Assembly: GCF_900114615.1 (NCBI RefSeq)
Contig: NZ_FOTS01000037.1
Coordinates: 1-38,023, forward strand
Source: Pelosinus propionicus DSM 13327
Lineage (GTDB): Bacteria; Bacillota; Negativicutes; DSM-13327
Reading direction: 5' to 3'
DNA length: 38,023 nucleotides
This document shows positions 13,743 through 34,967 of the stretch, piece after piece; position 1 is the stretch's first letter, and each line of letters starts with the position of its first letter. Below the pieces are notes generated by a model. That model saw only the letters and a program-made list of their open reading frames with translations, did no database searches and was not told the origin of the DNA. The position numbers and the translations under genes were made by a program.

Positions 13743-13783
13743 AATCAGAATATAACAACAATAATAAAACTAACTTAAATGTA

Positions 13784-13812
13784 TTGCAATGCATAAAAAC
13801 ATGATGTATAAT
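13784..13812 (+). promoter_or_regulatory. Sigma-A promoter for leader copy A and the derived transposase
   Basis: TTGCAA (13784-13789), a 17-base spacer and TATAAT (13807-13812) give a near-consensus promoter. Transcription would start near 13819, about 40 bases before the conserved leader motif. Confidence 0.75.
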
Positions 13813-13857
13813 CAGAACAAGTTAAGTTAATGATGTTTAAGTTGTCTTTGGTTAAGA

Positions 13858-13910
13858 GTACAACGAAGTGCCGACCGAATGCCTGTGTGCGTTCGGTCGG
13901 CTATTATTTT
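13858..13910 (+). promoter_or_regulatory. Conserved leader motif with hairpin, copy A
   Basis: GTACAACGAAGTGCCGA starts at 13858 and runs into a 13-base-pair stem (13870-13882 with 13889-13901, one T-G pair) with loop CTGTGT, followed by the T-rich TATTATTTTTAT. The same motif, promoter and hairpin layout recurs at 25904 and 32099. It has the shape of a transcription attenuator or riboswitch expression platform, or the motif may be a protein operator (GTAC-N6-GTRC). No known RNA family was recognised. Confidence 0.65.
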
Positions 13911-13928
13911 TATAAGGGGGTGAGTATA

Positions 13929-14909
13929 GTGTCAGATGATAGCACATTTGTTTTGACAGGATTGCAGTTAATGATTATGGGGGATGTAGAGGCGGATCCG
14001 CCAGACGGATCAATTGGGTTTACTAGAAATTCGTATTGGGTTGAAAAAAAGCAGGCTACTATTGTTTCTGAGACTATCCCTCCTGTTACAAGTAATAAAT
14101 TTGCGGATGAAAAACGTAAAAATCTATTAATGGCGATCTGTTTGAAGTATCCATTCTGGAATGATTTTCGTATATTGAATTTTTTAAATAAGCGCAGTAT
14201 TTCTATGACAATGAAAGAATTAGGAGATCTGCGCAGAGAATGTGGTATTGAAAGCAAAGAAGAAGTTTGTCTGGAGTTAATGCGGCTCTATTTTAATAAT
14301 GAAATAGAGTTAGACAAAACGCAAGTACAGTTTATCGAAAGGCTCAATCCGGCATTTCGCGATCGAAATTTCCTGGCAAACAGACCTGGTGAATTACTTG
14401 TATATGAATGTGTCTTTTTCCGAAGGTTAAATAAAATGTTTTATCTTCATTTAGTATTTGATTTATTTAATGGCTATGCTTTTGGCAAGATAAGTCGCCG
14501 TTGCTCAGGAGAAATAGGTTTAAAGCTGCTGCAAGAAAAAATTGTTCCCTTTTATCGCAGCAGAGGTTATGAGATTCATGGGATTTTACATTCTGTCAAA
14601 TCGACTCGAGATCATTGGGAAGCAGAAGAAGCCAAAATTAAGGACAGTATTGTAGCGATGGGTATCGAGTGGCTAGAGCCTAAGCATGAGTTTGGGATCA
14701 TACAATGTTTTCAGCGAGATTTTTTAGATCACTTTTTCAGTAATGCAGAAGCACTTGACGTACCGGTATTAATCATTCAGCCAGCTTTTGATCGATGGAT
14801 GATAAAATATAATGCCTCCTGTCCTTTTCATCAAAGGCGTGATCTCTTAGGTTATACGGATGAGTTAGAGAGTACAGGCAGGATATCTTTGGAAGCCAAA
14901 TGTAATTAA
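13929..14909 (+). CDS. Derived IS481-like transposase/integrase-core protein, probably not catalytic
   Basis: A 326-residue protein. Residues about 60-100 look like a transposase helix-turn-helix. Residues about 145-290 align in my reading with the rve/DDE core of IS481-type transposases: GELLVYECVFFRRL, FYLHLVFDLFNGYAFGKIS, a VPFYRSRGYEIHGIL block and FGIIQCFQRDFLDHFF. The expected triad is eroded: first Asp is Glu, the Asp of the DNG block is replaced (HSVKS), and the final Glu of the VERF block is Gln. The frame is intact, has its own promoter, and shows no terminal inverted repeats. GGGGGTGA before the GTG at 13929 sets the start; the longer frame from 13830 crosses the leader hairpin. 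It may be a domesticated DNA-binding regulator of the adjacent anf locus (inference). Confidence 0.65.
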   Translation: MSDDSTFVLTGLQLMIMGDVEADPPDGSIGFTRNSYWVEKKQATIVSETIPPVTSNKFADEKRKNLLMAICLKYPFWNDFRILNFLNKRSISMTMKELGDLRRECGIESKEEVCLELMRLYFNNEIELDKTQVQFIERLNPAFRDRNFLANRPGELLVYECVFFRRLNKMFYLHLVFDLFNGYAFGKISRRCSGEIGLKLLQEKIVPFYRSRGYEIHGILHSVKSTRDHWEAEEAKIKDSIVAMGIEWLEPKHEFGIIQCFQRDFLDHFFSNAEALDVPVLIIQPAFDRWMIKYNASCPFHQRRDLLGYTDELESTGRISLEAKCN

Positions 14910-14937
14910 GTTTAAGAAAGCCCTAAAAATAATAAAA

Positions 14938-15218
14938 GCTTCATGAGTATTCGTGGTACTCATGAAGCAAAGCAAAGCCTTTTATGGTATTCGTGGTACC
15001 TATAAAGGGGAGTAGAAATTCAAGTTCCAGTGGCGCTAGGTTTATTTCGTTTACCCATTTTTCGTATACCAATGATTTTATTATTAATTAAAGGGGGTGA
15101 TTTTATAGGAGAACACGATAAAATGCTTCATGAGTATTCGTGGTACCCATGAAGCTAGGCAAACTTTTTAATCCCAGTGGCACTAGGCTCATTTAATTTA
15201 CCCGTAAATAGTATAACA
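14938..15218 (+). ncRNA. anfH leader with tandem structured repeats
   Basis: The 365-base gap before anfH carries three hairpins that share the loop context GTATTCGTGGTAC on different stems: 14938-14968, 14978-15008 and 15125-15155. The last two each belong to a 93-base unit with exactly the same internal spacing: the hairpin at offset 0, CCAGTGGCRCTAGG at offset 49, TTTACCC at offset 72 and GTATAMC at offset 86 (units 14978-15071 and 15125-15218). CCAGTGGCRCTAGG can itself form a small bulged hairpin with loop GGC. Stems differ while loops and spacing are kept, which is the signature of structured RNA. Riboswitch, processing site or regulator target are all possible; I recognise no known family. 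Confidence 0.65.
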
Positions 15219-25883: not shown

Positions 25884-25903
25884 GAAAATAAAATCATCGT
25901 TGT

Positions 25904-25960
25904 GTACAATGACGTACCGGTCGGATGTGCTGATGCACTCTGGAACCGGTTTTAATTTTA
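25904..25960 (+). promoter_or_regulatory. Conserved leader motif with hairpin, copy B
   Basis: GTACAATGACGTACCGG starts at 25904 and its last bases enter a stem: ACCGGT (25916-25921) with ACCGGT (25945-25950), extended by an imperfect inner helix to the loop TGAT. TTTTAATTTTAAG follows. The layout equals copies A (13858) and C (32099). It lies 46-100 bases before the soluble ABC/GTPase module, so it could attenuate that operon. Confidence 0.65.
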
Positions 25961-26005: not shown

Positions 26006-27244
26006 ATGGAGCAAATACAACTGACGATGACAATTAGTGAAATTATTCAGAACTATCCTGAAACACGTGAGGTCTTTATTAATAATGGTTTTGCTATTTT
26101 TGCCGATGATACGGTTATTCGGCAGCTGGGAGTGGTATTAAAATTAAAAACGGCATTAAAAAGTAAAAATATAAATGAAGATTCTTTTATGAAATTACTG
26201 CAGGGAAAAATCGCAGAAACGGGCAGATATAAGAACTTACAAACTACACTTCTTGAAAATAACTCAAACCACTTAAATATGCTGTCCCTATTGCCTTGCC
26301 CATTAAAAGTTCCTATGCAAGGAGAATTAAAAATATTTTTGGACTATTTGCGTGAAGAAAAAAACCTACCGTTGAATTACTGTATTGAATCTTTTTTCAA
26401 TGATCATTTAGATTATGAAGATTATTTAGAGCATTTTGAAGAACCAGATGAAATTCCTGATATTATCATGACTGCCGGCTATGGTTTTTTTTATAAAAAA
26501 TTCATGGATTGCTTTGTTGCCAAAGGAATTTTTGCTGACGTGATCAATCGTCCTGTAAATTCTCGCCTGGCTGAGGCTGGAATCATTGATCCAGATGGAC
26601 ATTTTACAGTGATTGGAGCCAATGTTCTGGTTATGGTAGTAGATAAGAATCGTTTAGGCAGTACTCCTATACCTAAGAACTGGGGTGATTTATTAAAGCC
26701 TGAGTATGAAAATAAAGTAGTAATGCGGGGGCATGGTGATATTTTTTGTGATGTTGTACAGCTTAATTACTATAAAGAATATGGGGTAGCGGGAATCGAG
26801 CAATTAGGACGGTCCGTAAGGTATGGACTCCATCCGGCACAAATGGTTAAAGAACTTACCAGTAGCCGCAAAGATGTACCGCCAATTCATATTATGCCTT
26901 ACTTTTTTTATAAAACTATGAAGGAGTCTGACCATATAAACATCCTATGGCCCGAAGATGGAGTCTTAATCTACCCGATATCTGTGCTGATTAAAGCGGA
27001 TAAAATGCAGGAATTGCAAGAATTAGCAGAATATCTGACAGGTCCAGACATTGCTCGGATTTGTGCAGAAGCGTATTTTCCTGCCACCCATGGGGATGTG
27101 CAAGTGAACCTTCCTGAACATGTAAAATTAAAATGGCTGGGCTGGGATTTTATTAAAAATAATGATATGAAATACCTTGTGGAAACCATGAATGATACCT
27201 TTATGCGGGTATATCGCAAGGGAGGGAAAAAAGTATGCAGCTAA
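26006..27244 (+). CDS. Cytosolic binding-protein-like protein with DUF1858-like N-terminus
   Basis: A 412-residue protein of unknown function. Residues 6-60 (MTISEIIQNYPETREVFINN...) resemble the DUF1858 helical domain (a 'pattern of sleep' of YPET-hyphen-VF type) without its usual cysteines. Residues 100-390 resemble type II periplasmic binding proteins of the iron/thiamine type (DIIMTAGYGFFYKKFMD, a PKNWGDLLKPEYENKVVM block, YPISVLIKADK). No signal peptide or lipobox is present, so it should stay in the cytoplasm. Its 3' end overlaps the GTPase gene by 10 bases. It may carry a metal or oxyanion to or from the GTPase and ATPase partners; this is inference. Confidence 0.65.
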   Translation: MEQIQLTMTISEIIQNYPETREVFINNGFAIFADDTVIRQLGVVLKLKTALKSKNINEDSFMKLLQGKIAETGRYKNLQTTLLENNSNHLNMLSLLPCPLKVPMQGELKIFLDYLREEKNLPLNYCIESFFNDHLDYEDYLEHFEEPDEIPDIIMTAGYGFFYKKFMDCFVAKGIFADVINRPVNSRLAEAGIIDPDGHFTVIGANVLVMVVDKNRLGSTPIPKNWGDLLKPEYENKVVMRGHGDIFCDVVQLNYYKEYGVAGIEQLGRSVRYGLHPAQMVKELTSSRKDVPPIHIMPYFFYKTMKESDHINILWPEDGVLIYPISVLIKADKMQELQELAEYLTGPDIARICAEAYFPATHGDVQVNLPEHVKLKWLGWDFIKNNDMKYLVETMNDTFMRVYRKGGKKVCS

Positions 27245-27921
27245 TTACAGTTGCCGGACCACCCTCGGCGGGTAAAACTTCTGTTATGTTAAAGATCATT
27301 GAAACTCTTCAGGAAGAAACATTGAAAGTAGGTGTGGTCAAATTTGATTGTTTGTCTACCCAGGATCAGATTCTCTATCAAAAAAAAGGCATTGAGGCAA
27401 AGATTGGACTGTCGGGAAATCTTTGTCCAGACCATTTTTTTGTGAGTAATATCCAGGACTGCTTACTATGGTCGCAAAAAAATAATTTAGATATGTTAAT
27501 TACGGAAAGTGCTGGTTTGTGCAATCGGTGTTCTCCTCATATTCGTGATGTTATGGCAGTATGCGTGATTGACAATTTGAGCGGTGTGAATACCCCAAGA
27601 AAAGTGGGTCCTATGCTGAAATTAGCCGATATCGTCATTATAACGAAGGGGGATATTGTTTCTCAAGCGGAGAGGGAGGTTTTTGCTTTTCGGGTGAAGC
27701 AGGCAAACCCAAGCGCAATTATTGTTCATGTAAATGGTATTACTGGTCAAGGGGCTAGGGAAGTGGGACAGCTCTTTAAAAGAGCGCAGTCTGTAGATAG
27801 CCTTACCGATTGTCATTTGCGGTTTTCTATGCCTGCAGCGACCTGTTCGTATTGTTTAGGACAAACTCGTATCGGACAAAACTTTCAAATGGGAAATGTT
27901 CGCAAAATGGATCTTAGTTAG
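27235..27921 (+). CDS. HypB/UreG-like P-loop GTPase with two CxxC pairs
   Basis: A 228-residue SIMIBI-class NTPase. It has P-loop GPPSAGKTS (residues 8-16), a switch-like segment LDMLITESAGLCNRC (85-99), VCVIDNLSG (109-116) and a TKGD guanine-specificity motif (137-140), as in HypB and CobW relatives. Two CxxC pairs, Cys96/Cys99 after the ESAGL switch and Cys204/Cys207 near the C-terminus, are good metal or Fe-S ligands. HypB and UreG deliver nickel in maturation; the metal here is unknown. It overlaps the binding-protein gene and precedes the ABC ATPase, so the three proteins probably work together. Confidence 0.72.
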   Translation: MQLITVAGPPSAGKTSVMLKIIETLQEETLKVGVVKFDCLSTQDQILYQKKGIEAKIGLSGNLCPDHFFVSNIQDCLLWSQKNNLDMLITESAGLCNRCSPHIRDVMAVCVIDNLSGVNTPRKVGPMLKLADIVIITKGDIVSQAEREVFAFRVKQANPSAIIVHVNGITGQGAREVGQLFKRAQSVDSLTDCHLRFSMPAATCSYCLGQTRIGQNFQMGNVRKMDLS

Positions 27922-27969
27922 CAGTTGATGCTACTATCATAGTAGGTTATTAGGAAGGTGGAAGTTGCC

Positions 27970-28971
27970 ATGTGGAATAGTTTGTCTGTGATGACAGTAA
28001 AACAATTATTTAGTTCGTATCCTTATGCGACTGACTTTTTTTCGTCGCTGCCGAATCTTCAGCAAAGTGAAGATTCTTCTGTTGCGCAGTACTTTGCTGC
28101 GATCGAGGATGATACATTACTAGACTTGGGGATTGACCGCCAAGAGTTTCTGGATCAGTTTCTTTCTTTTATGCTGCAAATGGAGAAATTAAAAGAGGAC
28201 AAGGTTAAAATTGAGTCCATTACGATTATAGGTGGCAAGGATAAACAGGGTAAAGCTGAAGATATAGAATTAACGATTCATGCGGGAGAAATTGTCTGCA
28301 TTGTAGGACCTACTGGTTCTGGCAAGAGCCGATTACTTGCCGATATTGAATGGGTGGCGCAGCAGGATACGCCGACTAATCGCAAAATATTGATTAATGA
28401 ACAGCTGCCTGATATGAGGTGTCGATTTTCTGTTGAACATAAGCTAGTAGCCCAGCTTTCTCAAAATATGAATTTTATTATGGATCTGTCTGTAGGAGAA
28501 TTTGTCAGTATGCATGCAGAGAGCAGGATGCTTGAAAATATAGAAGAGATTACCAGTCATATTATCGCCAAAGCCAATGAATTGGCCGGAGAAGAATTCT
28601 CCTCGGATGTACCAGTGACCTCACTAAGTGGAGGCCAGTCCCGGGCTTTGATGATCGCCGATACAGCTTATTTAAGTTCGTCACCTATTGTACTGATTGA
28701 CGAAATTGAAAATGCTGGCATTGATCGTCAAAATGCTCTGCGATTATTGATTGATAAGCAAAAAATTGTATTGATGGCAACTCATGACCCTATATTGGCA
28801 TTAATGGGGGATAAACGAATTGTGATTAAAAATGGAGGGATAAGCAGCGTTATTCAAACATCTGAAGAAGAGCGAAGAAATTTAGTTCTGCTAACGACAA
28901 TCGATCGAAAGATGTTAGCCATTCGAGAAATGTTGCGCAATGGCGGACGCATTGATGAAATTCCAGTGTAG
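27970..28971 (+). CDS. Soluble ABC-type ATPase with DUF1858-like N-terminus
   Basis: A 333-residue protein. Residues 1-70 resemble the DUF1858-like domain of the first gene (VKQLFSSYPYATDFFSS). Residues 80-333 are an ABC ATPase: Walker A GPTGSGKS (113-120), signature LSGGQ (219-223), Walker B VLIDEIENAG (241-250) and switch His272 in MATHDP. No membrane protein gene accompanies it and its helical region is unlike importer ATPases, so it is probably a soluble energy unit for metal or cofactor handling. The ATG at 27970 is preferred over the GTG at 27958, which lies in the ribosome site AAGGTGG. A weak hairpin (29014-29047) follows the stop. Confidence 0.7.
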   Translation: MWNSLSVMTVKQLFSSYPYATDFFSSLPNLQQSEDSSVAQYFAAIEDDTLLDLGIDRQEFLDQFLSFMLQMEKLKEDKVKIESITIIGGKDKQGKAEDIELTIHAGEIVCIVGPTGSGKSRLLADIEWVAQQDTPTNRKILINEQLPDMRCRFSVEHKLVAQLSQNMNFIMDLSVGEFVSMHAESRMLENIEEITSHIIAKANELAGEEFSSDVPVTSLSGGQSRALMIADTAYLSSSPIVLIDEIENAGIDRQNALRLLIDKQKIVLMATHDPILALMGDKRIVIKNGGISSVIQTSEEERRNLVLLTTIDRKMLAIREMLRNGGRIDEIPV

Positions 28972-30992: not shown

Positions 30993-31796
30993 CTATTTAC
31001 TCATGGTAAAACCGTATTTTTCAAAGATTGCTTTACTTTCGGGAGTGCTTAAATAAGCAAGGAAATCTGTTGCTGCTTTTTCTTGTTTTGTTCCTGTCAA
31101 AACAGCCACTGGATATACAATTGGCTGGTGAGAACCTTCTGGCGCAGTAGCGGCAATTTTTACTTTTTCACTGGAGGCGGCATCTGTTTTGTATACGATA
31201 CCAGCTTCTACGTTACCTGTTTCAACGTAGGTTAAAACTGTGCGGACATCCTTTGCAAGTACTGCTTTACTTTGTATTTTATCCCAAATCCCCAATTTCT
31301 TAAGGACTTCTTGTGCATATTGTCCTGCTGGTACAGAAGCTGTTTCGCCAATGCTGATCTTTTGAACTTCATCTTTAGTTAAATCCTCATATTTGGAAAT
31401 GACGAGAGCAGAGTCTTTTGGTACAATAACGACCAATTTGTTTTCCACTAGATTTTTACGTGTGGCCTTATTCACCAGGTTTTTTGCCTCTAAGTCATTC
31501 ATTTGTTTGGGAGCTGCAGAGAAAAAAATATCAGCGGGCGCACCTTGTTCGATTTGTTTCTGCAACGCACCTGATGCACCAAGATTATAGGTCAATTTAA
31601 CAGTAGGGTTCAGAGCTTCAAAATTCTTTTGAATTTCAGCAAGGGCATCTTTTAAACTGACAGCAGCAGATACGTTTAGCTCGACTTTTTGCGGCGGTGT
31701 GGCTGGAGTAGTCGGTTTTTCGCCACCGCATCCAGTAGCTATTGCAGCTATTATTAGTATAGCTGCTGTTAAGAAAGATAATAAACGTTTTTTCAA
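30993..31796 (-). CDS. modA: Molybdate-binding lipoprotein of the ABC transporter
   Basis: A 267-residue substrate-binding protein. A lipoprotein signal (KKRLLSFLTAAILIIAAIATGC, lipobox A-T-G-C) anchors it. NVSAAVSLKDALAEIQKNF, GASGALQKQIEQGAPADIFF, VPAGQYAQEVLKKLGIW and TVLTYVETGNVEAGIVY are the ModA oxyanion-binding segments. The best start is the TTG at 31796: GGGAGGA lies seven bases upstream. The upstream frame to 31850 has poor support. It captures molybdate for ModBC. It heads modABC on the minus strand. Confidence 0.93.
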   Translation of the reverse strand: MKKRLLSFLTAAILIIAAIATGCGGEKPTTPATPPQKVELNVSAAVSLKDALAEIQKNFEALNPTVKLTYNLGASGALQKQIEQGAPADIFFSAAPKQMNDLEAKNLVNKATRKNLVENKLVVIVPKDSALVISKYEDLTKDEVQKISIGETASVPAGQYAQEVLKKLGIWDKIQSKAVLAKDVRTVLTYVETGNVEAGIVYKTDAASSEKVKIAATAPEGSHQPIVYPVAVLTGTKQEKAATDFLAYLSTPESKAIFEKYGFTMSK

Positions 31797-32025
31797 TGAA
31801 ATTTCCTCCCTCATTTTTAATTTAAATAATTGATACTTATAAAAAAACAACTAACATAGCTCAACAGAACTAGATTAGTTGATACAGCATCGTATCGATA
31901 AATTAAATAAACTAAAGACTATAGTAACAGCGATATATGTATAATAATAGTGACTTTATAACTAAAATACTACAAAATGATATCGTAGTCAATATAAAAG
32001 TCTTTGTATTTATGTTATAAAGAGA
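31797..32025. other. Intergenic region upstream of modA
   Basis: An AT-rich stretch. On the minus strand TTGACT (near 31991) and TATTTT with a 17-base gap could form the modA promoter. The tract AGCGATATATGTATAATA (from about 31929) weakly recalls ModE-type TATATA half sites, but no clean inverted repeat is seen, so no operator is claimed. Confidence 0.35.
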
Positions 32026-32060: not shown

Positions 32061-32156
32061 AAGTTTAATATAGTGCTGTTTTGTGTGAAACCAATTGTGT
32101 ACAAAGAAGTACCGGCTATGAATGTGAGTATGTTCATAGCCGGTACTTCTTTTATG
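32061..32156 (+). ncRNA. Candidate small RNA ending in leader-motif hairpin, copy C
   Basis: From the promoter at 32026 transcription would start near 32061 and reach GTACAAAGAAGTACCGG at 32099, which runs into a 20-base-pair perfect stem (32103-32122 with 32133-32152) and a T-run. The product would be an RNA of about 95 bases. The stem is perfectly symmetric, so it can also end the minus-strand regulator transcript; but the upstream GTACAA and promoter exist only on the plus strand. It is the third copy of the motif at 13858 and 25904. Confidence 0.6.
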
Positions 32157-32168
32157 AAAAACAAAATA

Positions 32169-33104
32169 TTAAAGTTCTGCCATGATTTCGCCCATCTGGG
32201 ATACATCATAACCGCCCATACCTGCGATCTCATTGCGGAATATGGGAGAACGCAGTATTGATATCAAGGCTTGGAAATGAGGCTTTTCTAAATCATGCCG
32301 CAACATAACTAAATCATAACGTTCTTTTTGCAAGGAAATAAATTCGACATTCTGTACCTGCATCGCTGCTTTTTCAATACCTAGTCCGACATCAGCATCA
32401 CCACGAGCAACAGCGCTGGCAATGGCAAGATGGCTAGTTTCTTCCTGGTTATAGTTTGGAATGGCTCTAGGATCAAGTTTAAGTTGCTGAAACTTTTCAT
32501 CAAGCAATACCCTGGCACCAGAGCCGCGTTCTCTATTGATGAAGCGAATATCTGACCGTAGTAAATCTGGCCAATCCTTTATGTTTTTTGGATTGCCAGG
32601 GGCTACATAAAATCCTTCATAGCGATAAACTAAATTAATAATAAGTGCTCTTTGACCTGGGAGTAAATGACGCACATAGGGAGTGTTATATTCTCCAGTA
32701 TCCCCATCCCAAAGATGAGTAGTAATCAAATTAGCTGTACCGCGGTATAAGGCAATCAAACCATCCATGCTGCCATTAAAGCATCGCAAAGAACGAACTT
32801 GAGGCATCTGTCTTTCTAGATGGCGTGTTAGGACGTCTAGAATAGCATCTTGTCCATAAATAATTAAACCTTCCTGAGCAGCTGAAGATACATTGGTATT
32901 TTGAGCGGCAGGCGTCGAAACGATACTAGTTGTACCTTTCGCATTGTTCATGTACTTTTCCAGATCTGCTGCTTCTATGCGTAATTTGCGGCCGATATGA
33001 TAAGCAGTCAATTCGCCGCGTTTGATAAATTCATAAACAGTGAAACGTGAAATTTTAAGTATTTTAGCAACTTCTTCTGGGGTGTAAGCTATCGTATTTG
33101 CCAT
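32169..33104 (-). CDS. HTH regulator with molybdate-type PBP sensor domain
   Basis: A 311-residue regulator. The first 55 residues form an excisionase/MerR-like HTH (YTPEEVAKILKISRFTVYEF then IKRGELTAYHIGRKLRI). A Ser/Thr/Ala-rich linker leads to a C-terminal domain of the COG1910/PBP-like type (residues about 85-311) with SMDGLIALYRGTANLITTHLWD, INRERGSGARVLLDE and VARGDADVGLGI. Such proteins sense molybdate, tungstate or similar oxyanions and regulate mod genes, replacing ModE. The ATG at 33104 follows GAGGTG by six bases; the GTG at 33113 is part of that site. It lies upstream of modA on the same strand and probably regulates it and perhaps anf. Confidence 0.87.
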   Translation of the reverse strand: MANTIAYTPEEVAKILKISRFTVYEFIKRGELTAYHIGRKLRIEAADLEKYMNNAKGTTSIVSTPAAQNTNVSSAAQEGLIIYGQDAILDVLTRHLERQMPQVRSLRCFNGSMDGLIALYRGTANLITTHLWDGDTGEYNTPYVRHLLPGQRALIINLVYRYEGFYVAPGNPKNIKDWPDLLRSDIRFINRERGSGARVLLDEKFQQLKLDPRAIPNYNQEETSHLAIASAVARGDADVGLGIEKAAMQVQNVEFISLQKERYDLVMLRHDLEKPHFQALISILRSPIFRNEIAGMGGYDVSQMGEIMAEL

Positions 33105-33262
33105 TTGTATCACCTCATGCTACTTGAATTTAATGTTTACAGCATATCTTATTTTCAATGATTTAACAACGGACAATCTGTAATTTCATGACCTTTATAA
33201 AAAGAAAGATAGCTTCTAAATATTTTGTACTAATTATAAAAATTTATAAGGAGGAATAAAAG

Positions 33263-34069: not shown

Positions 34070-34163
34070 TACATCCACCTCAATTTCACCTAATCGAAAT
34101 ACTTTTTGATAATAGACTTTCAATTTGTAATTAAACACTCAATGAAATAAGGAGGAATGCGTG

Positions 34164-34967
34164 ATGTCAATAAATGGATTATATGCTAAATTATGTTTAA
34201 TAGTATGTTTTATGGTGCTTTCTTTTGTTACAGGGTGCGGGAACGTACAGCCGGCTGCAGTTCCTTCAGCTCAGCCAGTAGAAATAAATGTATCAGCAGC
34301 TATGGGGCTTAAAGACGCCCTGGTGGAAATACAAAAAAAATATGAAGCGGATCATTCTGTTAAAATTGTCTTTAACTTGGCGTCTTCAGGGGCATTACAA
34401 ACTCAAATTGAGCAAGGGGCACCAGCGGATTTATTTATTTCCGCTGCTAATAAACAAATGGATGAATTGCAAAAAAAGAATCTCATTATTCCTGCTGCGC
34501 GCAAGAATTTGGTCGGAAATCAATTGGTATTGATTGTACCTAAGACTTCTCAATTGGAGTTGCACAGCTTTCAAGATTTGACTAACGCAAGTGTTACCCG
34601 TTTTGGCATGGGTGTGCCGGAGACAGTACCAGCCGGGGAATATGCCAAACAGGTACTAGAAAAATTACAAGTATGGGAAACTGTGAAAGAAAAAGCTGTA
34701 ATGCCTAAAGATATTCATAGCGTATTGACCTATGTGGAGACCGGGAATGTAGAAGCCGGGATTGTCTTTTCTACCGTGGCGGCTGCAAGTGATAAAGTAA
34801 AAGTTGCTGCCATAGCGCCAGCGAATAGCCATGAGCCAATCCTATTTCTAGGTGCTGTCGTGAGCAGTGCTAAGCATCCGAAAGAAGCAGAAGCATTTTT
34901 ACAATATCTGACGAGTTCTGATGCAATGGCAGTGTTTACTAAATATGGTTTCCAAAGGATGCAATAA
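34164..34967 (+). CDS. modA2: Second molybdate-binding lipoprotein (ModA paralogue)
   Basis: A 267-residue ModA with a lipoprotein signal ending LSFVTGC. It shows the same oxyanion-binding segments as the modA at 30993: NVSAAMGLKDALVEIQKKY, ASSGALQTQIEQGAPADLFI, VPAGEYAKQVLEKLQVW and SVLTYVETGNVEAGIVF. GGAGG lies eight bases before the ATG at 34164, which overlaps an in-frame GTG at 34161. It has no permease or ATPase of its own nearby and may share ModBC or serve as a molybdate or tungstate buffer. It is probably co-transcribed with modD and ends at a terminator. Confidence 0.93.
   Translation: MSINGLYAKLCLIVCFMVLSFVTGCGNVQPAAVPSAQPVEINVSAAMGLKDALVEIQKKYEADHSVKIVFNLASSGALQTQIEQGAPADLFISAANKQMDELQKKNLIIPAARKNLVGNQLVLIVPKTSQLELHSFQDLTNASVTRFGMGVPETVPAGEYAKQVLEKLQVWETVKEKAVMPKDIHSVLTYVETGNVEAGIVFSTVAAASDKVKVAAIAPANSHEPILFLGAVVSSAKHPKEAEAFLQYLTSSDAMAVFTKYGFQRMQ

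Follow-up and report, generated by a model that had tools for sequence, protein, structure and literature searches.

A domesticated IS481-type transposase beside molybdenum and alternative-nitrogenase genes of Negativicutes, and its candidate role as an accessory regulator

The locus in Pelosinus propionicus

The stretch of DNA analysed here (the window) comprises 38,023 nucleotides of Pelosinus propionicus DSM 13327 (contig NZ_FOTS01000037.1; genome G000 in this work). A transposase-like gene lies in it between an aminotransferase gene and anfH, an arrangement also found in other Pelosinus of the Negativicutes. The features that bear on this gene are as follows.

13766..13781, + strand: AAAACTAACTTAAATG, an AACTAA-type box upstream of the promoter (by eye)
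13784..13812, + strand: putative sigma-70-type promoter TTGCAA-N17-TATAAT, read from the sequence
13851..13912, + strand: motif A in the gene's own leader, with hairpin GUAC-AACGAA-GUGC at 13858-13871 (model match E 7.6e-16)
13929..14909, + strand: transposase-like coding sequence, 326 codons (326 aa), catalytic triad lost (frame and alignments)
14106..14300, + strand: retained helix-turn-helix (HTH) region, residues ~60-124 (AF2 model; alignment with HTH_32 of intact transposases)
14934..15218, + strand: motif B, two boxes CCAGTGGCRCTAGG together with three hairpins whose loop is TTCGTGG (sequence)
25897..25960, + strand: motif A copy upstream of the DUF1858/SBP, CobW-type, ABC ATPase operon (E 1.3e-14)
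26006-28971: genes for a DUF1858+SBP_bac_6 protein, a CobW/HypB-type NTPase and an ABC ATPase in one operon (Pfam)
32092..32154, + strand: motif A copy 3' of the HTH_17/PBP_like regulator gene, ~240 nt from modA (E 3.1e-9)
32169-33113, strand opposite to the preceding motif A copy: HTH_17/PBP_like regulator gene

The frame runs from GTG 13929 to the stop at 14909 with no internal stop, so that the earlier description of it as intact holds over all 326 codons. Conservation does not extend to the longer frame that starts at ATG 13830, since the orthologs L003 and L004 have a stop five codons upstream of GTG 13929. The gene occurs once in the genome, the next match having an E value of 0.37. The DUF1858 operon, which perhaps serves metal handling, adjoins the transposase-like gene itself in five genomes, and its copy in the window is preceded by motif A. 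All three motif A copies of the window fall within the molybdenum/nitrogenase stretch. Two similar modA-type genes, at 30993-31850 (-) and 34161-34967 (+), also lie here on opposite strands, about 2.3 kb apart.

Origin of the protein and loss of the catalytic triad

An IS481-like origin with the pattern of an rve core had been proposed in a sequence-only reading of the window, and profile comparison has confirmed it. A profile of 24 family members was aligned by hhalign with the intact IS481-type transposases L146 and L092 at 99.1% and 99.4%, the alignments having E values of 9.8e-19 (258 columns) and 1.7e-21 (237 columns). Searches with the window protein alone returned no rve match in Pfam, no useful match among PDB sequences and a weak IS3 match only in NCBIfam (7.8e-5), where the curated IS481 cut-off was not reached. 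A tblastn search of 72,556 plasmid records gave six distant matches at 22-24% identity, two of them annotated as ISAs19, and 50,697 phage records contained no match to the family.

A complete DDE triad was found in none of the 25 members. The second Asp is lost in all 25, where S, T, H, Y or A stands in its place, the first in 24, and the Glu in 17, the other eight members still having Glu at the third position. In the window protein the Q-D pair reads Y159 E160, the T-D pair reads H221 S222, and the Glu is Q259; D178, the Asp of FDLFN, aligns with a conserved non-catalytic Asp. The first catalytic Asp is replaced elsewhere by E, K, G, Q or S and is present in L011 alone, and the Gln preceding it has become Tyr in all 25 members. 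The earlier statement that the second Asp and the Glu had been replaced is thus correct for the window protein, and has to be extended to the first Asp (E160).

Intact relatives carry two HTH regions, of which the family keeps the second (about residues 60-125), and the alignment of the family to the transposases begins after the first. The claim of a retained HTH therefore stands for the second region, the first being absent from the aligned part. The AF2 model, built with four close sequences as input, is poor over the core (mean pLDDT 49.6) and usable for the HTH region alone, which has a pLDDT of 75-87 over residues 61-140 and helices at 60-73, 79-88, 95-105 and 110-122. A Foldseek search of this model, with its poor core, gave no PDB match at E <= 0.001. 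In addition, a leucine-rich N-terminal segment recurs by eye across the family. Overall, domestication of an IS481-type transposase long ago is well supported.

Conservation, selection and mobility

Orthologs with 76-89% identity have been found in six of the seven other genomes of the genus that were searched. Five of the six are flanked by the aminotransferase gene and anfH. The sixth comes from a fragmented MAG (G007), where a short contig carries it directly upstream of the DUF1858 operon, which in the window starts at 26006. The synteny with anf that had been expected from the sequence was accordingly recovered in six of seven Pelosinus carriers. The remaining Pelosinus genome, G002 (a MAG, 89% complete), holds an N-terminal remnant at L112:5160-5400 that consists of the leader, the start and a few dozen codons ahead of stops, and is followed by the anf leader and anfH; motif A is retained there beside anf. 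Searches of G008 and G009, of the same family and 89% and 83% complete, returned no match to the gene, and G146 has a decayed second copy near 11014 of L166 that kept its leader motif and adjoins anf. The expectation that close relatives would keep the gene whole thus held in seven Pelosinus genomes and failed in G002, with no match in the incomplete genomes G008 and G009. The remnant and the two null searches show that the gene is accessory and not essential, and it is dispensable.

The proposal that selection keeps a dead transposase in place agrees with the substitution rates of the seven Pelosinus orthologs, in which dN/dS was 0.14-0.32 over 21 pairs (Nei-Gojobori) and 0.14-0.23 in pairs with dS > 0.2. 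By region, three comparisons gave the lowest values for residues 141-250 (0.08-0.14), 0.14-0.23 for the HTH region, and higher values for residues 251-326 (0.20-0.46). The neighbouring genes, each in three comparisons, gave 0.05 for the aminotransferase gene, 0.01-0.02 for anfH, 0.03-0.04 for anfD, 0.04-0.05 for anfG, 0.11-0.13 for GATase, 0.15-0.17 for GGCT and 0.11-0.18 for nifV1, so that the transposase-like gene is constrained less tightly than most neighbours tested.

Each carrier genome has one strong profile match. Inverted repeats around the gene were sought in 22 of the 25 members; L005, L009 and L019 lie too near a contig end to be included. Every best match was equalled or surpassed by at least one of 20 shuffles, and for L001, L022 and L024 a single shuffle of the 20 reached it. 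In the window the best match is an A+T pair of 11 bp, and the congeners have other best matches. In the Pelosinus orthologs the best match pairs motif A with the anf-leader loop and stays within the range of the shuffles. The loss of the triad, which the sequence-only reading had put up for alignment, is found together with a lack of inverted repeats beyond chance in the 22 members tested.

Distribution and genomic neighbourhood

Among 380 genomes of the class Negativicutes, 27 match the family profile at E <= 0.001, and 24 of these match below 1e-90. In a phylum-wide sample of 398 genomes, six matched at E <= 1e-6, namely the window genome, G577 from another class (1.4e-97) and four weaker matches, which are IS481-like and fall outside the family clade. 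The relatives share 25-39% identity across nine families, and their frames are nearly all open. In a tree with 20 other rows all 25 members group together (support 100/99); the stem of this clade measures 1.27 changes per column, and the tree program warns that long branches meet there. G577 branches inside the family (support 98/96), and its nine taxonomic family mates gave no match on search; its nested position means that the spread of the gene need not be vertical and that horizontal spread is possible.

In 19 of the 25 genomes, and in 10 of 13 genera, the gene lies beside alternative-nitrogenase, modABC, molybdopterin, anfO or DUF1858/ABC genes, as listed below.

Beside anf or vnf-type clusters: G000, G001, G003-G006, G074, G130, G054
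Beside modABC and its HTH_17/PBP_like regulator: G039, G026, G050
Beside the DUF1858/SBP operon: G007, G142, G110, G146, G118
Next to a molybdopterin-binding-domain gene in a moa-like run (by eye): G046
At most 75 nt after anfO: G577 (outside the class)

Five genomes (G114, G017, G034, G070 and G126) show no such neighbour in the stretch read, and G043 shows a GGCT-like neighbour alone at the end of its contig. Neighbours were located with the window proteins as queries and by reading of open frames, a procedure that may miss other molybdenum genes. Over the 380 genomes of the class, AnfG, whose matches at 37-51% may be of the vanadium type, is present in 14 of 24 carriers versus 10 of 356 others (Fisher 2.5e-13; values of this test are inflated because the genomes are related). 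By genus the counts are 8 of 12 versus 4 of 90 (9.6e-7), with the carrier and the AnfG-positive genome being different genomes in one of the eight genera (g48). One of the 10 AnfG-positive genomes that lack the gene is 65% complete.

Promoter and leader motif A

The gene appears to have its own promoter, and 17 of 20 leaders examined have a TATAAT-like element ahead of the hairpin. Boxes similar to the AACTAA-type box of the window were found by eye upstream of vnfH in L101 and L109, and such boxes are possibly sites of the HTH_17/PBP_like regulator encoded at 32169-33113. In motif A a loop of six bases, for instance AAYGAA, stands between (G)UAC or CAC and GUG(CC), the last of which leads into a terminator-like hairpin with a U-rich tail. 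In the leader of the window gene the 3' arm of the small hairpin overlaps the terminator-like hairpin at 13871-13900, which has the U-rich tail.

A leader common to the gene and the metal operon had been noticed in the sequence, and motif A indeed matches both of them and the third place near modA. The leader model consists of 18 rows, 17 of which are leaders of transposase-like genes. The scores of the first two window copies are partly given by construction, since both are among the rows, and that of the third is independent. All 24 carriers of the class have a match just upstream of the gene at E <= 5e-5, as expected from the model rows, and the leaders of G017, G034 and G050 differ in having a GGC/GCC stem; the search covered the carriers of the class, G577 lying outside it. 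At E <= 1e-5 motif A was found in 37 of the 380 genomes, comprising 22 of the 24 carriers and 15 others. Several of these 15 are probably chance terminators, and the weaker non-carrier matches L154, L157-L159, L161 and L162 resemble ordinary terminators by eye. Strong copies also exist in genomes without the gene, ahead of the DUF1858 operon in G106, with aminotransferase and substrate-binding-protein genes (the latter by eye) in G082, with aminotransferase genes in G192/G194, and in G009.

Folds of full-length leaders favour the terminator (z -4.5, -3.2 and -8.9). Rfam at gathering level gave no match in the window or in the loci of 14 relatives except a 5S rRNA, and relaxed thresholds gave nothing convincing on the leaders. 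A motif-A-like string upstream of the L094 gene was judged a coincidence. In G046, a hexaloop hairpin UGGC-AAUGAA-GCCA with a terminator-like stem occurs upstream of an amtB-like gene (L116:8779-8856).

Motif B in the anf leader

Motif B has no Rfam match at gathering level and seems to be a structured leader, not described before, that belongs to Fe-only nitrogenase operons. Boxes CCAGTGGCRCTAGG...TTTACCC accompany the conserved-loop hairpins at 14934-15218. The loop TTCGTGG (or its complement) and/or the box was found in 14 of 18 stretches with anf- or vnf-type genes (the window, L119, L121, L130, L112, L100, L166, L169 and L194-L199), the loop occurring in either orientation and as the complement in other genera. 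Neither element was found in L101, L109, L200 (605 nt upstream examined) and L201. It had been suggested that the protein acts on these repeats just downstream of its gene. The pattern of presence and absence does not support this part of the reading, as G082, G020, G220 and G221, which lack the gene, have the loop and/or the box in their anf leaders, and neither was found at the vnf-type clusters of L101 and L109, beside which the gene lies. The repeats thus go with anf and not with the transposase-like protein.

Possible function

A regulator is the most likely job of the protein because of the retained HTH region, the neighbouring genes and the shared leader. With a probability of roughly 0.6, the domesticated transposase would be an accessory nucleic-acid-binding regulator of molybdenum and alternative-nitrogenase genes, and the DNA-binding form of this role that had been proposed is consistent with the findings. 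Such a protein would help to switch the alternative nitrogenase, molybdate uptake and the DUF1858/ABC operon with the supply of molybdenum and nitrogen. Its own production would probably be gated twice, by the promoter with AACTAA-type boxes and by the leader hairpin that overlaps the terminator.

Proteins of the BglG type and ANTAR proteins prevent terminators by binding leader hairpins. The transposase-like protein might likewise be an RNA-binding antiterminator that binds the hexaloop (CAC/GUAC-ANNGNN-GUG/GUAC) of its own and other molybdenum leaders. The presence of motif A in 22 of 24 carriers, which is largely by construction, points this way, and so do the further copies at other operons of the same genomes. 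An A1/G4 hexaloop on a stem of at least three pairs is present in 45 of 46 leaders examined, L095 having G at position 1, in a scan that required a stem and in which four picks are probably the wrong hairpin; covariation of 0.92 versus 0.62 when re-paired was given no weight as proof, stems having been a condition of the scan. However, the strong motif A copies of G106 (the DUF1858 leader), G082, G192/G194 and G009 stand in genomes without the gene, which weakens the case for the protein as sole reader of the motif, and ANTAR proteins, a rival reader, were found in 15 of 15 genomes tested and in 0 of 14 control genomes. The copy near modABC runs opposite to modABC and its regulator gene, and occurs at the same place in G001, G004 and G006; RNA control of modABC therefore fits poorly, and a DNA site is possible. 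Also, the isolated small hairpin of the window gene is weak (-2.8 kcal/mol), and in the isolated piece of the DUF1858 leader a different fold wins. Since several genomes have the leader and lack the gene, the RNA-binding form is held to be rather unlikely.

A domesticated role outside regulation, as a protein-interaction or scaffold part or in another job of molybdenum/nitrogenase physiology, is suggested by the loss of the first HTH and by the recurrent leucine-rich segment seen by eye at the N terminus. Against it, the structure prediction for the HTH region that is left is fairly confident, and this region is under purifying selection in three comparisons (dN/dS 0.14-0.23); we give such a role a small chance.

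The gene might also be an old insertion-sequence copy that travels with the anf cluster, decaying and still unbroken. The remnant in G002 and the decayed copy in G146 would agree with this, but the open frames of divergent relatives in nine families and a dN/dS well below 1 do not, and members stand beside quite different molybdenum operons, so that linkage to anf alone cannot explain their retention; this quite improbable reading is largely refuted. An active transposase with a displaced triad, for which the Glu kept at the third position in eight of 25 members and otherwise the fold family alone would speak, is highly improbable in view of the incomplete triad in all members, the single strong copy, the lack of inverted repeats beyond shuffles in the 22 tested, the absence of matches in 50,697 phage records and the distant nature of the six matches in 72,556 plasmid records.

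A separate clade beside amtB and glnK

Triad-broken IS481-like genes have also been found in another family of Bacillota, beside amtB and/or glnK at seven of seven places in four of 10 genomes. The idea was formed on two places in G723, and the other five were found afterwards as a test. Four of the genes lie upstream of amtB and have all lost the second Asp; three follow glnK and have all lost the Glu, L193 showing glnK only. These genes form their own clade (support 100/95), nearer to ordinary IS481 transposases, and recruitment of IS481-like proteins to nitrogen loci has therefore seemingly happened twice. A tentative generalization, more doubtful than the regulatory role itself, is that IS481-type transposases of Bacillota may have given rise to catalytically dead regulators of nitrogen supply on two or more independent occasions, one concerning molybdenum/alternative nitrogenases (the present family) and one ammonium transport (the amtB/glnK clade). 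Such proteins would bind the hexaloop leader hairpins or the promoters of these operons as metal- or nitrogen-responsive transcription or antitermination factors. In G074, an IS481-like core with a broken triad is joined in one protein to an HD domain of the c-di-GMP phosphodiesterase type (NCBIfam; L125:7352-9256, + strand).

Comparison with known systems

To our knowledge, the choice between molybdenum and iron-only nitrogenase in Negativicutes is an open question, and it was not treated in the literature surveyed by title and the opening of the abstract. The open-licence literature searched contained no paper that joins nitrogenase with a domesticated transposase, none on an inactive DDE transposase as transcriptional regulator and, judged by title, none on this case among the papers on IS481 and domestication that were surveyed. 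The conserved transposase-derived protein and the shared attenuator-like leader are two concrete candidates for a part in this choice. If it does regulate, a DDE transposase would here have come to control genes of its host, which would be unusual among bacteria, and the genes beside amtB/glnK would look like a second, independent instance.

The regulator TldR originates from TnpB and is thus derived from a mobile-element protein. TldR is treated in PMC13418256. Recruitment of mobile-element proteins as bacterial transcription regulators has been reviewed, with phage repressors and antitoxins as examples (PMC8987985, available sections). The present family would be alike in that a relative of a mobile-element enzyme is kept as a host or phage regulator; the same sections name no regulator derived from a DDE transposase. 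The target RNAs of ANTAR proteins, as given in an excerpt of PMC3369931, are tandem hexaloop hairpins with A1 and G4, upstream of nitrogen genes, in which an arm overlaps the terminator. Motif A shares the A1/G4 hexaloop and the overlapping arm. In contrast to the tandem arrangement of that excerpt, a second hairpin was found in 3 of 20 leaders tested, with 2.6 expected from shuffles, and motif A was rejected as a classical ANTAR target.

VnfA and AnfA are sigma-54 enhancer-binding activators with an AAA+ domain that exert metal-dependent control of anf and vnf, according to the accessible portion of PMC9542535. The VnfA site GT(T/A)C-N6-GTAC given there resembles the GTAC-N6-GTAC of some motif A copies. 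Unlike the VnfA/AnfA systems of that portion, the present locus combines a promoter that reads as sigma-70-type with a relative of transposases. The IS481-family transposases (ISAs19; L146, L092) are alike in the integrase-core alignment of about 240-260 columns, in the second HTH and in the order of motifs, whereas the present family has shed the complete DDE triad, the first HTH and inverted repeats beyond chance, and is kept as one strong copy per genome.
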